Positions 57,855 to 64,000 of a DNA stretch of 64,000 nt are shown here, in pieces. This stretch comes from Gaetbulibacter sp. S0825 (GTDB lineage: Bacteria; Bacteroidota; Bacteroidia; Flavobacteriales; Flavobacteriaceae), in the NCBI RefSeq assembly GCF_011777505.1, contig NZ_JAATJT010000001.1:992001-1056000 (forward strand), written 5' to 3'. The first letter of the stretch is position 1. Each line of letters begins with the position of its first letter. Below the pieces are notes generated by a model that had not been told where the DNA came from, did no database searches, and saw nothing but the letters and a program-made list of their open reading frames with translations. The position numbers and the translations under genes are program-made.

Positions 57855-58477
57855 AAAACAATAGTGTTAGTAAATGAATTTTTTATACGTTGATCATGAG
57901 TAATGATAATCAAATTCGCATTCGACTTTTTTGCCTGACTTTTCAATAAATCAATTACTAATTCACAATTTTCATCATCTAAACTTGAAGTTGGCTCATC
58001 CGCAAGAATAATATCTGGTTTATGAATAACACCTAAAGCAATCCCTAAACGTTGCAATTGACCTGTACTTAATGTATTAGGTTTTTGGTTTTTTACAGAA
58101 ACTAAATCTAATTGATTCAAAATGTTTTCAATCGCTTCTTTTTGCTTGGAAATTCCACTAAAATACAATCTAGCTTGTAAGTTTTCGTAAACGGTTAATG
58201 AAGAAACCGCAATGGTATTTTGAAAAACAATACCAATATGCCTTCCCCTAAAAGCATCTAATTTTTTACTACCAATACTGGTGATATTGGTGTCGTTGAT
58301 GAAAATATTTCCATTATCCGGACTTAAAATTCCTGCCAATAAATGTAAAAGAGTGGTCTTGCCAATACCCGATTTACCAAGAATTAATAATGATTGACTG
58401 CTGGTTAACTCAATATCAGGAAAATTAAAAGAAGATTCTTTAGTATAAGAAAAAGTTACATCTACTGTTTTAAGCAT
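57851..58477 (-). CDS. ABC transporter ATP-binding protein (LolD/MacB-like)
   Basis: 208 residues. Walker A LGKSGIGKTTLLHLL, Q-loop region IVFQNTIAVSSL, signature LSTGQLQRLGIALG and Walker B IILADEPTSSLDD followed by the switch His in IIITHD. It is the ATPase for the permease encoded immediately downstream. First gene of the operon; an operator-like palindrome sits in its promoter region. Confidence 0.93.
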   Translation of the reverse strand: MLKTVDVTFSYTKESSFNFPDIELTSSQSLLILGKSGIGKTTLLHLLAGILSPDNGNIFINDTNITSIGSKKLDAFRGRHIGIVFQNTIAVSSLTVYENLQARLYFSGISKQKEAIENILNQLDLVSVKNQKPNTLSTGQLQRLGIALGVIHKPDIILADEPTSSLDDENCELVIDLLKSQAKKSNANLIIITHDQRIKNSFTNTIVL

Positions 58478-58538
58478 AAAAAACTATATAAGAGTGTAAA
58501 TATATTAAGTTTTAATATTTATGAAGATACTTTATAAA

Positions 58539-58571
58539 CGAATGTAGACATTTTTCTTATAATGATAAGAA
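58539..58571 (-). promoter_or_regulatory. Promoter with embedded palindromic operator for the ABC operon
   Basis: On the minus strand TACATTCG (58546-58539, one mismatch from TAnnTTTG) is preceded by the palindrome TTCTTAT-N4-ATAAGAA at 58554-58571. The palindrome occupies about the -15 to -33 interval, a position where a bound protein would block transcription. It abuts the metK terminator. Confidence 0.5.
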
Positions 58572-58608
58572 TAAAAAACCTCATAACAATCAAGTTATGA
58601 GGTTTTAT
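58571..58608 (-). terminator. Terminator of metK
   Basis: The stem AAAACCTCATAAC / GTTATGAGGTTTT with loop AATCAA has a T run on the minus strand. Confidence 0.85.
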
Positions 58609-58628
58609 TTTTTTATTGAGAAGAGGAA

Positions 58629-59882
58629 TTAGAGTCCGAATTCTGTTTTTACTTTATCCACATAATCCAACTTTTCCCAAGTAAATAACTCAACGTCCAT
58701 AGTAATTGGTTCGCCATTTGGTTGTTCAAAGGTTTTAGTTACAATCTCATGAGGTCGTCCCATGTGTCCATAGGCAGCAGTTTCGCTGTACATTGGGTTG
58801 CGTAGTTTTAAACGTTCTTCAATAGCAGCAGGTCGCATATCGAAAATCTTTGAGACTTTTTCTGCAATTTCACCATCAGTCATATTAAAAGCGCATGTGC
58901 CATAAGTATCTACAAAAATCCCCATTGGTTCAACAACACCAATAGCGTAGCTTACTTGTACTAGTACTTCGTCACAAACACCAGCAGCAACTAAATTTTT
59001 TGCAATATGTCGCGTTGCATATGCAGCACTTCTGTCTACCTTACTTGGATCTTTACCAGAGAAAGCGCCTCCACCATGAGCACCTTTTCCACCATAAGTA
59101 TCCACAATAATTTTACGTCCTGTTAATCCTGTATCGCCATGAGGTCCTCCAATCACAAACTTTCCTGTTGGGTTGATGTGGTATTTAATATCATCTGTAA
59201 ACAATGCTTGTATATCGCTAGGTAATTTTGCTATAACTCTTGGAATTAATATCTCAACAATATCTTTTCTAATTTTAGCTAGCATTGTCTCATCAGTATC
59301 AAAATCATCATGTTGTGTAGATATTACAATAGCCTCAACGCGCTGTGGTACATTGTCGTCGTTATACTCAATAGTAACCTGACTTTTAGAATCTGGACGT
59401 AAATAGGTAATCTCCTTATTTTCACGACGTAATTCAGCAAGTTCCTTTAAAATTAAATGAGCTAAATCCAATGCCAAAGGCATATAGTTTTCTGTTTCAC
59501 GAGTGGCGTAACCAAACATCATACCTTGGTCGCCTGCTCCTTGTTCTTCTTTGTTTTCTCTATCAACACCTCTATTAATGTCCTCTGATTGCTCATGAAT
59601 TGCCGAAAATACACCACAGGAATTACCGTCAAACATATATTCACTTTTGGTATAACCAATTTTATTAATGGTTTCTCTTGCTATTTTTTGAACGTCTAAA
59701 TAGGTGTTCGATTTCACTTCACCAGCTAACACAACTTGACCAGTGGTTACTAAAGTTTCACAAGCTACTTTTGAGTCTTTATCAAAAGCTAAAAAATTAT
59801 CAATTAAAGCATCACTAATTTGGTCTGCTACTTTATCTGGATGTCCTTCAGAAACACTTTCCGAAGTAAATAAATATGCCAT
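58629..59882 (-). CDS. metK: S-adenosylmethionine synthetase
   Basis: 417 residues. Signatures: [20 protein letters not shown] with the ATP-binding His, [12 protein letters not shown], the [12 protein letters not shown] nonapeptide-like loop, [42 protein letters not shown] and a C-terminal AYGHMGRP. It makes SAM from methionine and ATP. The ~127-nt 5' leader carries a SAM-II-like aptamer, predicting feedback repression by its own product. Confidence 0.97.
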
Positions 59883-59918
59883 AAATCACTATTTTGTTTA
59901 ATAAAATAAGAAAAAATG

Positions 59919-59985
59919 TGATTGCTTGGTCGCTAGAGAAGTATCTTGATTACTGCTTTAGCATTTTTTAATGAGGTTGCAATCA
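59919..59985 (-). promoter_or_regulatory. Possible expression platform: pairing of aptamer loop with downstream leader
   Basis: TGATTGC in the aptamer loop (59985-59979, minus) is exactly complementary to GCAATCA at 59925-59919, which is followed by CA and a six-T run. The pairing competes with the SAM-bound fold, so it could switch termination or initiation of metK. Confidence 0.4.
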
Positions 59986-60001
59986 GAACAAATTTTTCCT
60001 C
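59953..60001 (-). ncRNA. SAM-II-type riboswitch aptamer upstream of metK
   Basis: Read on the minus strand: P1 GAGG (from 60001) pairs with CCTC (59976-59973). The loop carries AATTTG and ends ATTGCA, and the 3' tail reads ATTAAA...GCTAAAG then CAG. These blocks (AUUUG, UUGCA, UUAAA, GCUAAAG) occur in the order and spacing of the SAM-II (SAM_alpha) consensus as I recall it. CTG in the loop can pair with the terminal CAG as the pseudoknot. P1 starts within about 10 nt of the predicted transcript start. Confidence 0.75.
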
Positions 60002-60015
60002 TTATAATTTGATGG

Positions 60016-60023
60016 CAAATGTA
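60016..60023 (-). promoter_or_regulatory. metK -7 promoter box
   Basis: TACATTTG on the minus strand fits TAnnTTTG exactly. It sets the transcript start near 60009 and so places the aptamer at the very 5' end of the mRNA. Confidence 0.6.
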
Positions 60024-60072
60024 AATAATATAAGGTAACTAAAAAATGGTTTTTATATAAATTGCGATTAAA

Positions 60073-60128
60073 CAGAAAAATATTCTATAATTAGAAGTTT
60101 ATTGGTTTTATAAACGAATATTTTTCTG
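60073..60128. repeat. Perfect 13-bp inverted repeat with inner hairpin
   Basis: CAGAAAAATATTC at 60073-60085 recurs as its reverse complement at 60116-60128; inside, GTTTAT (60097-60102) pairs with ATAAAC (60110-60115). It lies between the metK and ilv promoters and lacks a protein-coding explanation. It could be an operator pair or a cruciform. Confidence 0.6.
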
Positions 60129-60139
60129 CGGTAATTGAA

Positions 60140-60171
60140 TTTGGTTATTAAAAATATTATTCTAATATTTG
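60140..60171 (+). promoter_or_regulatory. Promoter of the ilv leader
   Basis: TTTG at 60140-60143, a 20-bp spacer and AATATTTG at 60164-60171 (one mismatch from TAnnTTTG). The start site would fall a few bases before the first leader-peptide ATG at 60181. Confidence 0.5.
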
Positions 60172-60180
60172 AACTAACAA

Positions 60181-60243
60181 ATGCAAAAGCAAATATTAAA
60201 TATCATTTCTATTATTAGCGTCGTGATTATTTCGCAACGGTAA
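60181..60243 (+). CDS. ilv leader peptide 1 (attenuator)
   Basis: A 20-codon ORF encoding MQKQ then ILNIISIISVVIIS then QR. It has seven Ile, two Val and one Leu codon, half of the peptide. The reading frame ends in TAA at 60241-60243, overlapping the start of the antiterminator segment AAAAGGATGG (60242-60251). It is too small to be a functional protein and its composition and position are those of a branched-chain amino-acid leader peptide. Ribosome stalling at Ile/Val/Leu codons would leave the antiterminator free to pair with CCTTCCTTTT (60279-60288; nine of ten bases). Confidence 0.8.
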   Translation: MQKQILNIISIISVVIISQR

Positions 60244-60275
60244 AAGGATGGTATCTAAAATTCAAATAAAAATTT

Positions 60276-60305
60276 AAGCCTTCCTTTTTTCGGAAGGCTT
60301 TTTTT
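60276..60305 (+). terminator. ilv attenuator terminator 1
   Basis: AAGCCTTCC / GGAAGGCTT, a 9-bp stem with a 7-nt loop, followed by a T run. Its 5' arm is shared with the antiterminator formed with 60242-60251, so the two folds are mutually exclusive. Confidence 0.9.
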
Positions 60306-60317
60306 ATGAATTACAAA

Positions 60318-60368
60318 ATGAAATACATAGTCAACATTATAATTATTGCCATTATTAACTCAAGTTGA
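60318..60368 (+). CDS. ilv leader peptide 2 (second attenuator)
   Basis: A 16-codon ORF, MKYIVNIIIIAIINSS, with seven Ile and one Val codon; an in-frame ATG at 60306 would add four residues. The stop is at 60366-60368. Three bases later TGATGCAG (60371-60378) can pair with CTGTATCA (60400-60407) over eight bases with one G-U, forming an antiterminator that excludes terminator 2. A ribosome reaching the stop would cover this segment; one stalled on the Ile run would not. Confidence 0.78.
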   Translation: MKYIVNIIIIAIINSS

Positions 60369-60397
60369 GTTGATGCAGCTAGCTATATATAATTTAG

Positions 60398-60427
60398 GCC
60401 TGTATCAATTTGATTCAGGCTTTTTTT
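60398..60427 (+). terminator. ilv attenuator terminator 2
   Basis: GCCTGTATCA / TGATTCAGGC (one T-T mismatch) with a 3-nt loop, followed by seven T. Its 5' arm contains the CTGTATCA that pairs with the antiterminator at 60371-60378. Confidence 0.9.
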
Positions 60428-60444
60428 GTTAGAATTTTTATACG

Positions 60445-60591
60445 TTGAACATCATATATAAAGCAGCTTAAAGTACTGATAAACAATAAAATACAAAAGA
60501 TGAACACATAATGACTTTAGACTAGCTTAATTGATGTTCAATTAGTAAAAGATGGAAACCTCTAATTTCGAAATCTCTAAGCTTTGCTTAG
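60445..60591 (+). promoter_or_regulatory. Structured distal leader of ilvD
   Basis: TTGAACATCA (60445-60454) pairs with TGATGTTCAA (60532-60541); inside, AAGC/GCTT (60461-60464/60525-60528) and TAAAGT/ACTTTA (60469-60474/60514-60519) continue the stem. A separate hairpin CTAAGC-TTT-GCTTAG (60577-60591) ends 15 bp before the ilvD ATG. The role is unknown. Confidence 0.45.
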
Positions 60592-60606
60592 CATCAAAAA
60601 CGTAAA

Positions 60607-62286
60607 ATGAAAGCATTAAATAAATACAGTAGAACAGTTACTCAAGACCCAACACAGCCTGCCGCGCAAGCTATGTTACATGGTATTGGTTTAACAAGAG
60701 AAGACTTTGAAAAACCGTTAGTAGGTATTGCAAGTACAGGTTATGAAGGGAATCCTTGTAACATGCACTTAAATGATTTAGCAAAATTGGTGAAGCAAGG
60801 AACACTTAATGAAAATGTAGTGGGATTAATATTCAACACCATTGGTGTTAGTGATGGAATTTCGATGGGAACTCCAGGAATGCGTTACTCATTACCTTCT
60901 AGAGATGTTATTGCTGATTCTATGGAAACAGTAGTGCAAGCTATGAGTTATGATGGTTTGGTGACTGTAGTTGGATGCGACAAAAATATGCCTGGAGCCT
61001 TAATGGCAATGATTCGTTTAAATAGGCCTTCCATTTTAGTGTATGGTGGAACTATAGACTCAGGTTGTCACAATGGTAAAAAATTGGATGTTGTTTCTGC
61101 TTTTGAAGCTTGGGGAAGTAAAGTGGCTGGAACCATGGAGCAAGAAGAATTTGAATGCATCGTTAAAAAAGCGATTCCTGGTGCTGGTGCTTGTGGTGGA
61201 ATGTATACAGCTAATACTATGGCGTCAGCCATTGAAGCATTAGGAATGGCATTACCTTTTAATTCTTCAAATCCAGCGAGAGGAGAGGCAAAAGAAAAAG
61301 AAGCTGTAAAGGCTGGCGAAGCGATGAGATTGTTGTTGGAAAAAGATATCAAGCCTTCAGATATTATTACCAGAAAATCACTTGAAAATGCTATTCGATT
61401 AGTGACTATTCTTGGAGGCTCTACAAACGCAGTCTTACACTTTTTAGCAATAGCAAGAGCAGCACAAATAGACTTTACTTTAGCGGATTTTCAAAAAATA
61501 AGTGATAATACACCATTCCTTGCCGATTTAAAACCTAGCGGAAAATATTTAATGGAAGATGTTCATGCCGTAGGAGGTATTCCTGCGGTTTTAAAATACT
61601 TATTGAAAAAAGGGTTACTTCATGGTGATTGCTTAACTGTAACAGGAAAAACGCTAGCTGAAAATTTATTAGATGTTGACGATTTAACAGTAGGTCAAGA
61701 AGTAATTAAGCCAATAGAAAATCCTATTAAAATTTCAGGACATCTTAGAATGCTGTATGGCAATTTAGCACCAGAAGGTAGTGTTGCTAAAATCACAGGC
61801 AAAGAAGGATTGAAATATCGTGGAACTGCAAAAGTTTTTGAAGGAGAATACGATGCTAATGATGGTATTCGTGATGGCAAAGTACAAAAAGGAGATGTCG
61901 TTGTGATTCGTTACGAAGGACCAAAAGGAGGTCCAGGAATGCCAGAAATGCTAAAACCTACTGCTGCTATTATGGGGGCAGGTTTAGGAAAAGACGTGGC
62001 TTTAATTACAGATGGTCGTTTCTCAGGAGGAACTCATGGATTTGTTGTTGGACATATCACTCCTGAAGCGCAAGAAGGAGGAACAATTGCTTTGGTAAAA
62101 GATGGTGATATAATTACTATTGATGCCGAAACCAATAGTATTACTCTTGAAGTTTCAGAACAAGAACTTCAACAAAGAAAACAACAATGGAAAGCACCAA
62201 AATTAAAAGTAGAACGAGGTGTATTATACAAATATGCAAGAACAGTTTCATCAGCAGCCAAAGGTTGTGTAACCGATGAATTTTAA
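60607..62286 (+). CDS. ilvD: Dihydroxy-acid dehydratase
   Basis: 559 residues, family length. Signatures: Fe-S and active-site cysteines in [15 protein letters not shown] and [18 protein letters not shown], the SGCHNGKK segment, and the C-terminal [21 protein letters not shown]. It converts dihydroxy acids to the 2-keto precursors of isoleucine and valine. It is preceded by a long leader with two attenuators and followed 3 bp later by the acetolactate synthase gene. Confidence 0.97.
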
Positions 62287-62289
62287 ATT

Positions 62290-64000
62290 ATGATTATGGA
62301 AACATTAACGGTAAAACAAAAGCAATACCTAGAGCAACCAAAAGAACGTATTTCTGGAAGCGAAGCTATTGTGAGATGCTTATTAGCTGAAGGAGTAGAT
62401 GTACTATATGGTTATCCAGGAGGAGCCATTATGCCAGTTTACGATGAGCTTTATAAATATCAAGATAAAATTCATCATGTGTTAACACGTCATGAACAAG
62501 GTGCAACACATTCGGCACAAGGTTATGCACGTATTTCTGGAAAAGTTGGAGTAGCCATGGCAACATCAGGTCCTGGAGCAACAAATTTAATTACAGGTAT
62601 TGCTGATGCACAAATTGATTCTACACCAATTGTATGTATAACAGGTCAAGTACCATCGCATTTATTGGGAAGCGACGCATTTCAGGAAACTGATATTGTT
62701 GGTATTTCAACGCCTGTAACAAAATGGAATCATCAAATCACTAAAGCTTCTGAAATTCCTGAAGTCATGGCTAAGGCATTTTACATTGCAAAAAGTGGAC
62801 GACCAGGACCAGTTTTAATTGATATTACCAAAGATGCTCAGTTTGAAGAGTTTGATTTTCAATATAAAAAATGCGAAGGTATTAGAAGTTACAATCCTGT
62901 TCCCAAAGTTGAAGATTCTAAATTAGCAGCAGCAGCAGATTTAATAAACAATGCCAAAAAACCAATGATTGTTTGGGGGCAAGGTGTGATTTTAGGAAAA
63001 GCGGAAGATGAATTAAAAGCAGTGATTGAAAAAGCAGGAATACCTTCTGCATGGACAATTATGGGAGTATCGGCAATTCCAACATCACATCCATTAAATA
63101 TTGGAATGGTTGGTATGCATGGGAACTATGCACCAAATGTTTTAACTAACGAATGTGATGTATTAATTGCCATAGGAATGCGATTCGATGATAGAGTAAC
63201 TGGAAAGTTAGATGAATATGCGAAACAAGCCAAGGTCATTCATTTTGAAATAGATCCAGCCGAAATAGATAAAAATGTAAAAACTGACGTGGCTGTTTTA
63301 GGCAATTCTAAAGAGAGCCTAACAAAGTTATTACCACTATTAAATGCTAACTCACATACCGAATGGCTTCAAAAATTCAAAGATTTATATACTATTGAAT
63401 TTAACAAAGTGATAAAAAATGATTTACACCCAACAAAGGAAGGTTTAACTATGGGAGAAGTATTGAATGAAATCAATACACAAAGTAAAGGAGAAGCTGC
63501 AATTGTGTCTGATGTTGGTCAGCACCAAATGATAGCTTGTCGTTATGCGGAATTCAATAAAAGTAAAAGCAATATTACTTCTGGAGGATTAGGAACTATG
63601 GGATTTGCCTTACCAGCTGCGATCGGAGCAAAAATGGCTGCTCCAGATAGAGAGGTTGTAGCTATTATTGGTGATGGTGGTTACCAAATGACTATTCAGG
63701 AATTGGGAACTATTTTTCAAACCAAAGTACCTGTGAAAATAGTGGTATTAAATAATGATTTCTTAGGAATGGTTCGACAGTGGCAACAACTGTTTTTTGA
63801 CAAACGCTATGCGTCGACTGAAATGACAAACCCTGATTTTGTAGCTATTGCTAAAGGATATTATGTAGATGCTAAACGTGTGACTAAGCGTGAAGAACTA
63901 GCGTCTGCAGTAGAAGAAATGATGCAGAGTAAAGATGCTTATTTCTTAGAAGTTTGTGTAGAAAAAGAAGATAATGTATTCCCAATGGTGCCATCAGGTG
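62290..64000 (+). CDS. ilvB: Acetolactate synthase large subunit (C-terminus beyond window)
   Basis: About 570 residues are visible; the frame runs off the window edge. Start ATG at 62290 (another in-frame ATG at 62296), 3 bp after ilvD. Motifs: SGSEAIVRCLLAEGVDVLYGYPGGAIMPVYDEL, catalytic Glu in RHEQGATHSAQGYAR, SGPGATNLITGIADA and the ThDP site IIGDGGYQMTIQELGT. It condenses pyruvate (or pyruvate plus 2-ketobutyrate) as the first committed step to valine/leucine/isoleucine. The small subunit ilvN is expected just outside. Confidence 0.97.
   Translation, partial: MIMETLTVKQKQYLEQPKERISGSEAIVRCLLAEGVDVLYGYPGGAIMPVYDELYKYQDKIHHVLTRHEQGATHSAQGYARISGKVGVAMATSGPGATNLITGIADAQIDSTPIVCITGQVPSHLLGSDAFQETDIVGISTPVTKWNHQITKASEIPEVMAKAFYIAKSGRPGPVLIDITKDAQFEEFDFQYKKCEGIRSYNPVPKVEDSKLAAAADLINNAKKPMIVWGQGVILGKAEDELKAVIEKAGIPSAWTIMGVSAIPTSHPLNIGMVGMHGNYAPNVLTNECDVLIAIGMRFDDRVTGKLDEYAKQAKVIHFEIDPAEIDKNVKTDVAVLGNSKESLTKLLPLLNANSHTEWLQKFKDLYTIEFNKVIKNDLHPTKEGLTMGEVLNEINTQSKGEAAIVSDVGQHQMIACRYAEFNKSKSNITSGGLGTMGFALPAAIGAKMAAPDREVVAIIGDGGYQMTIQELGTIFQTKVPVKIVVLNNDFLGMVRQWQQLFFDKRYASTEMTNPDFVAIAKGYYVDAKRVTKREELASAVEEMMQSKDAYFLEVCVEKEDNVFPMVPSG

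Follow-up and report, generated by a model that had tools for sequence, protein, structure and literature searches.

The window analysed here, a stretch of 64,000 nucleotides from Gaetbulibacter sp. S0825, ends within an operon on the plus strand, the first gene of which is ilvD (dihydroxy-acid dehydratase, 60607-62286), followed by ilvB (acetolactate synthase large subunit, 62290-64000), which continues beyond the window end. In the stretch L225, ilvB is seen to be followed by ilvN, ilvC and ilvA, giving an operon ilvD-ilvB-ilvN-ilvC-ilvA that runs in one direction and, by virtue of this gene content, corresponds to the Ile/Val pathway; leuA-C-D-B lies 3' of ilvA on the opposite strand. The first-pass annotation had placed ilvD-ilvB under the control of the leader, which is right for these two genes but incomplete, as ilvN, ilvC and ilvA also belong to the operon. 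On the 5' side, metK (named by eye) is divergent from the leader, and a SAM-II riboswitch precedes it on the minus strand (59948-60007; 64.1 bits, gathering score 44). Between the leader elements described below and ilvD, an AT-rich conserved block extends from 60445 to about 60600, starting with TTGA[AG]CATCAT, a motif with one site on the plus strand and none on the minus strand of the window; the block is found in 39 of 224 loci, 143-229 nt 5' of ilvD, including 10 loci without a detected attenuator unit, and no consensus RNA structure emerged for it among 13 aligned sequences.

The region between metK and this block holds two successive units, A and B. In unit A, leader peptide 1 (MQKQILNIISIISVVIISQR, 60181-60243), for which unit-A relatives were found, terminates within segment 2 of a predicted antiterminator (60242-60251, AAAAGGATGG), which overlaps the stop codon and can pair at 9 of 10 positions with 60279-60288 (CCTTCCTTTT), that is, with the 5' arm of terminator 1. 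This terminator, of the CCTTCC class (60276-60306 including the 3' T tract), forms a hairpin at 60276-60300 (9 bp, -13.3 kcal/mol). A predicted protector (60200-60254) is composed of an outer helix (60200-60210/60245-60254) and an inner hairpin (60219-60226/60232-60239) located within the leader-1 codons. In unit B, leader peptide 2 (MKYIVNIIIIAIINSS, 60318-60368), likewise with unit-B relatives, could gain four residues from an alternative in-frame ATG at 60306. Its protector hairpin (60354-60374) is formed by 60354-60362, starting at the last Ile codon, with 60366-60374, and its antiterminator segment 2 (60371-60378, TGATGCAG) can form 8 pairs, including one G-U, with 60400-60407 (CTGTATCA) in terminator 2. 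The latter, of the CCTGTATC class (60397-60427 including the 3' T tract), has a hairpin at 60397-60421 (-11.0 kcal/mol) that is weaker than that of terminator 1 and is not listed by a simple terminator scan, which lists terminator 1 only. The covariance models described below match unit A at 60167-60306 (R2, 118 bits) and unit B at 60304-60429 (R1, 94.8 bits), each with the sequence itself in its training set. The two Ile/Val-rich peptides, the rho-independent terminator after each and both antiterminator pairings had been reported in the first-pass annotation just as they are found here; the conserved protector helix between leader codons and segment 2, present in both units, had been overlooked.

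The codons near the end of each leader point to the amino acids that would be sensed. Among 79 unit-A instances, the positions -10 to -4 before the stop codon encode Ile or Val in 67-84% and Leu in 0-4%, whereas among 34 unit-B instances Ile/Val accounts for 85-91% at -8, -6 and -5, 65% at -7 and 35% at -4; Val alone occupies codon -6 in 16 of the 34, and Val and Ile together in 91%. Leucine was considered as the main signal and rejected: within codons -13 to -4 of unit A, Leu never exceeds 5%, and although its share in unit B rises to 15% at codon -13 and to 12% at -12 and -9, it is only 0-3% at -8, -6 and -5. Relative to the first nucleotide of the stop codon, the pairing of segment 2 starts anywhere from 6 nt upstream to 9 nt downstream in the instances compared. 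The ribosome of enteric bacteria has a downstream footprint of 12 nt, and in a model assuming this length to be masked from the first base of the A site onward, a ribosome on the last Ile codon would leave the antiterminator free (duplex -11.5 with the A site at 60229 and -14.1 with the A site at 60354), and a ribosome at the stop codon would abolish it (+0.5 in unit A, -2.9 in unit B). The minimum free energy fold of ribosome-free unit A, extended to segment 3, contains the antiterminator and not the outer protector, so that default termination in unit A would require the protector to form first.

The predicted helices were evaluated across relatives by an alignment-free swap test, in which the energy of the duplex that a segment forms with the partner from its own instance is compared with the energies obtained with partners from other instances (79 distinct instances of unit A and 34 of unit B, 4000 permutations; L024, L038, L048, L050, L051 and L062 were omitted by name, and L164 and L178 as unclassed). 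In unit A (n = 79), own partners were favored over swapped ones for the antiterminator (-9.72 versus -8.15 kcal/mol, z -8.2), the outer protector (-6.76 versus -4.73, z -8.9) and the inner hairpin (-5.83 versus -3.84, z -8.7), with 0 of 4000 permutations in each case; the value for the inner hairpin comes from a corrected window, an initial misplaced window having given z -1.7. In unit B (n = 34), the same held for the antiterminator (-11.80 versus -10.93 kcal/mol, z -3.1, 2 of 4000) and the protector (-7.87 versus -5.66, z -6.6, 0 of 4000). Control segments gave z values of -1.2 to +2.1; the B-type protector positions in unit A gave -3.4, and the A-type positions in unit B +2.0 and +0.9. The permutations remove relatedness only partly. 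After thinning at 72% identity, the three helices of unit A (23 sequences) were attained in 0, 0 and 2 of 4000 permutations, and in unit B (13 sequences) the protector in 0 of 4000 and the antiterminator, more weakly, in 85 of 4000, which is attributable to the near invariance of segment 3. The comparison therefore supports partner-specific antiterminator pairing in both units, with weaker support in unit B after thinning.

Pair counts on alignments are in agreement with the swap tests. In unit A, 88.2% of cells were paired (83.8% in shuffles), and 19 of 25 pairs were changed on both sides; the corresponding values for unit B were 95.9% (89.6%) and 10 of 21, and none of 500 shuffles attained any of these measures in either unit. 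The share of paired cells is, however, biased toward the named structures, since those of unit A were taken from the window fold plus the alignment and those of unit B from the alignment consensus; the unit-A protector was named from the window fold and then counted, and it was also tested without alignment. The unit-A alignment comprised 63 of 80 instances, with 17 left out and L005 shortened. RNAalifold, applied to a MAFFT alignment of unit A, found the terminator alone and no other helix, because some rows have the terminator displaced by one column. The first-pass annotation had proposed that ilvD upstream regions of other Flavobacteriaceae be aligned for conserved leader peptides and covarying antiterminator pairs, and this expectation is borne out: the peptides, terminators and antiterminators recur in many genera, with partner-specific pairing.

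To survey the distribution of the units, up to 620 nt 5' of ilvD were read at 223 loci (86 from initial searches and the remainder from family searches), with L131 excluded as too short. A scan for an open reading frame plus terminator, in which unit A was defined by the CCTTCC-class terminator and unit B by the CCTGTATC class, assigned no unit to 114 loci, unit A to 65, unit B to 22 and A followed by B to 12; the rest were one A-A locus (L018, Aquimarina), seven with a single unclassed unit, and two with an unclassed first unit, followed by A in L038 (on a contig titled Ignavibacteriae) and by B in L111. The number of A-then-B loci becomes 14 when L111 (by peptide and position) and L193 (with a second unit added by hand) are counted. 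Among the 15 tandem loci that the scan gave, the leader-2 ATG lies 3-20 nt after terminator 1; the exception is L194, with a 12-nt overlap between terminator 1 and the longest version of leader 2. The scan misses some units, among them the second unit of L193 and those of L199, L211, L219 and L221, which are matched by R2, and 36 of the 112 distinct regions without a unit contain a same-strand open reading frame ending within 150 nt of ilvD, so that a unit could sit further upstream. Attenuation before ilvD is common, not universal.

As the scan depends on ilvD and is incomplete, covariance models were built for unit B (R1) and unit A (R2) and applied to 149 genomes of the family, one per genus (E <= 1e-4). 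R2 matched 62 places in 54 of the 149 genomes, 52 of the 62 being before ilvD or ilvE-ilvD, and R1 matched 32 places in 31 genomes, 30 of them in such positions, as judged by coordinates together with the reading of 17 stretches. This census does not depend on ilvD, but some of the genomes searched also contributed to the models, so that it is not independent of the training set. Unit A is directly followed by unit B in 14 genomes, each of a different genus, and the order B then A occurs in none of the 149; the fact that the order is fixed in 14 of 14 cases suggests that these pairs share an origin. The number of co-occurrences (14, against 10.1 expected; P 0.07) leaves an excess over chance unclear. 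In G017, G081 and G138, the A-B pair precedes an ilvE-like gene and ilvD (ilvE identified by model in G017 only), and in G084 (L264, 1153-1545) three units, that is, A and two near-identical further units with CCTTTCTCA terminators, stand in series before an ilvE-like gene and ilvD. In this record, the ilvE-like sequence of L264 shows up as two separate open frames (1486-1954 and 1978-2473). A rough gene tree (210 rows, without L193 and eight loci classed as other, and with only about 130 residues for L115-L194) requires at least 38 changes for unit A and at least 21 for unit B, and owing to this patchy presence it remains unsettled whether the A-B arrangement is ancestral.

The duplicate-like units of G084 look, from their sequences, to have been gained by duplication. 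In the genus of the window genome, L004 and L006 have unit A only; in L006, the terminator is followed by the sequence that follows unit B in L005, which looks like a loss of unit B by deletion between the T tracts. Within this genus, L005/L006 and L001-L004 represent two ilvD lineages about 69% identical with attenuators that are alike, and L006 retains a hairpin on the metK side that is also seen in L001. These likenesses suggest that the ilvD gene was replaced behind a retained leader.

A putative sigma-A promoter (60141-60171) precedes leader 1, with TTG at 60141-60143, a 19-nt spacer and TAATATTTG at 60163-60171; the last element lies 9 nt 5' of the leader-1 ATG and does not contain an exact TAnnTTTG, the -7 box described in the available passages of PMC9723704, in which leaderless mRNAs are put at only 5.5%. 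The strict motif TAnnTTTG is found in 15 of 78 unit-A leaders (1.0 expected). In a wider test, devised after this result was known, TTTG or TATTG ended 8-11 nt before the ATG in 49 of the 78, compared with 4-9 of 78 in three 8-nt upstream control windows. Of 20 single unit-B leaders, 10 have such an element ending 4-5 nt 5' of the ATG, and of 13 tandem unit-B leaders none has one at either gap (8-11 or 4-5 nt). These motifs suggest that a single promoter lies immediately 5' of the first unit and that the transcript carries very little sequence ahead of its first leader, the start site being inferred.

It is very likely that the ilvDBNCA leader consists of two ribosome-mediated transcription attenuators in series, A then B, as the first-pass annotation had supposed and as the conservation of peptides, terminators and partner-specific antiterminators supports. 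Each unit has the sequence attributes of an attenuator: a leader open reading frame rich in codons for the products, an intrinsic terminator between this frame and the first gene, an antiterminator that excludes the terminator and would be masked by a ribosome at the stop codon (with the footprint assumed), and a protector helix. Comparison of the sequences establishes these elements, their mutually exclusive pairings, the partner-specific complementarity, the codon identity and the A-then-B order. In the predicted mechanism, transcription would begin a few bases before leader 1, and in each unit a ribosome would translate the Ile/Val leader behind RNA polymerase. With ample charged tRNA(Ile) and tRNA(Val), the ribosome would reach the stop codon and cover segment 2, allowing the 3:4 terminator to form and transcription to stop; when Ile (or Val) is short, it would stall on the last Ile/Val codons, breaking the 1:2 protector and freeing segment 2, which would then capture the 5' arm of the terminator (2:3) and permit read-through. 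Without a ribosome, the 1:2 protector would favor termination. Because polymerase must pass both gates, read-through would be the product of two probabilities, from which we infer less leakage and a steeper response than with one gate. The use of the promoter, the translation of the leaders, the stalling of ribosomes, termination itself and the multiplied read-through are all inferred, in the absence of expression data.

Explanations that dispense with attenuation altogether find little support. Short open reading frames are abundant in AT-rich DNA, and terminator-like sites exceed those of shuffles in any case (5 versus 1.6 in 59000-61500), so ordinary terminators beside chance frames, for example at the end of an upstream gene, might be imagined. 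Since metK runs in the opposite direction, no upstream gene needs these terminators, and this identity was rejected. Chance frames were rejected by a scan of the whole window: among 28 terminator-like hairpins on both strands, eight have an Ile/Val-rich short open reading frame 5-75 nt upstream, and only units A and B also have at least six Ile/Val in 10 residues together with a duplex of stop-codon region and terminator 5' arm of -7 kcal/mol or lower (-12.1 and -14.5 kcal/mol); no site in 12 Markov-1 random sequences of window length, one strand each, met the full set. As the peptides, the stop positions and the alternative helices are moreover conserved and covarying, a chance origin is scarcely credible. 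Nor is there much room for an RNA that senses an amino acid directly, or for a T-box, both of which we judge extremely improbable: a biosynthetic operon preceded by a structured leader with terminators would suit them, but what is conserved here is a run of Ile/Val codons ending at segment 2, and an Rfam search of 58000-64000 yielded neither a T-box nor an amino-acid riboswitch among 14 matches up to E = 5. The weak matches lying over the units include two leaders of enteric bacteria, Phe_leader (RF01859, 28 bits) and Thr_leader (RF00506, 24.6 bits), each with a gathering score of 55, and no Rfam leader family reaches its gathering score at units A and B.

Two further explanations accept attenuation and differ in the part assigned to each gate. 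That a single gate is functional in this species and the other is a decaying relic might be argued from the commonness of single-unit leaders (65 A and 22 B of the 223), from the same-genus loci L004 and L006 with unit A only, the latter as if B had been deleted, from the lower stability of terminator 2, and from codon -6 of leader 2, which is Ala (GCC) in the window genome versus Val (GTC) in L002 and L003 of the same genus. We nevertheless regard this as improbable, because unit B retains its leader, protector, antiterminator and terminator, is also intact in L002 and L003, and scores high with its model, as unit A does, although both sequences are in the training sets. The same Ala codon allows another reading, namely that gate 2 of the window genome may read Ile only. 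The gates would then differ in specificity, A reading Val and Ile and B, in this genome, Ile alone, with full opening dependent on a shortage of Ile. Leader 1 has GTC GTG ATT ATT among the codons closest to its stop, and leader 2 has Ile codons plus one for Ala, its sole Val (60330) being far upstream; an Ile-only gate is not general, however, given the Val at codon -6 in 16 of 34 unit-B instances, and we consider a division of this kind rather unlikely. It refines the model of two attenuators in series without contradicting it.

Leaders resembling these units stand before other genes in the family. In L268 (552-680), leader MKHIITNTTTTTTGTS and a unit-A-like terminator precede the gene for a bifunctional aspartate kinase/homoserine dehydrogenase I (thrA), and this is, on the evidence of its letters, a Thr version of the unit-A scaffold; no classic thr leader was recognised upstream of the thrA match of the window genome. 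Seven genomes (L269-L275; about 410-580 in operon orientation) have an Asn-rich leader, M[RKM]NNNNNNNFNNP.., with 9-10 Asn of 15, followed by a GCCTTCC-class terminator, and in the fold the Asn codons pair with a GGTT[AG]TTGTT segment. This leader lies 5' of an open reading frame of 88-90 aa, gatA and gatB, of which gatA and gatB were named by HMM in L270 only, where the frame of the 88-90 aa class had no NCBIfam match. It looks like an asparagine attenuator of tRNA amidotransferase, a subject treated by none among the literature matches listed; the GatA matches of the window genome are only 28-32% identical to the query. In L278 (408-520), leader MKKQILNNNWWCHETSVS, with two Trp codons, and a terminator precede a TrpB-like gene. 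In L276 (414-537, operon orientation), leader MIKSNNIIIAIISIIAIQQ and a terminator precede an ilvA-like gene (by eye, without HMM), and the same genome also has a unit-A match before ilvD (L277).

Serial arrays in Flavobacteriaceae may constitute an adjustable dial, a reading that we put forward tentatively and with slightly more doubt than conviction. Units would be added by tandem duplication (G084) and removed by T-tract deletion (L006 versus L005), the number of gates setting the leakage and steepness of the Ile/Val pathway, and the A-like scaffold would have been adapted to Thr before thrA, to Asn before gatAB and perhaps to Trp before a TrpB-like gene, as a general system in a group in which translation starts do not rely on Shine-Dalgarno sequences.

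The attenuators of enteric bacteria (the trp, his, thr, ilvGMEDA and ilvBN leaders) combine a leader peptide rich in the product amino acid with a 1:2 protector, a 2:3 antiterminator and a 3:4 terminator. The flavobacterial units possess all of these elements, but differ in that two (once three) complete units are arranged serially, that their codons are mainly those of Ile and Val, that a promoter motif lies only a few bases before the first leader, and that they fall below the gathering scores of the Rfam leader families. Tandem attenuators were found in our literature search only for Salmonella mgtCBR (PMC3641672), where, as far as the available text goes, two short open reading frames in one leader are anticipated to control the same operon; as most subscription journals were not covered, novelty is unproven. 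That operon serves virulence and Mg2+ transport, whereas both flavobacterial units carry codons of their own end products. Attenuators of branched-chain operons have been described in Corynebacterium (ilvBNC, PMC11857589) and S. aureus (a leucine-rich attenuator peptide, PMC5794164), which belong to other phyla and, judging from the titles, involve one attenuator each, compared with two serial ones here. Within the same family, 'strong clues' for leader-peptide attenuation before amino-acid operons were presented for Flavobacterium psychrophilum in 2021 (PMC9723704), a paper in which 'ilv' is absent from the main text and no tandem arrangement is given in the passages available. The statement in the first-pass annotation that such attenuation is little described in this phylum agrees with the literature found, but has to be qualified by these clues. 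The mechanism is classical; what seems new, within the literature covered, is the serial arrangement of two RNA families, both with codons of the operon's own products.

If the two gates do act in series, they would represent a natural case in which two RNA switches (once three) that respond to one input are multiplied, and the single, double and triple versions in related genera would allow a direct measurement of how leakage and steepness depend on the number of gates. Two RNA families with testable helices are gained, and the logic of classic attenuation, which we found barely described in this major family of soil, sea and freshwater, appears to be widespread there.
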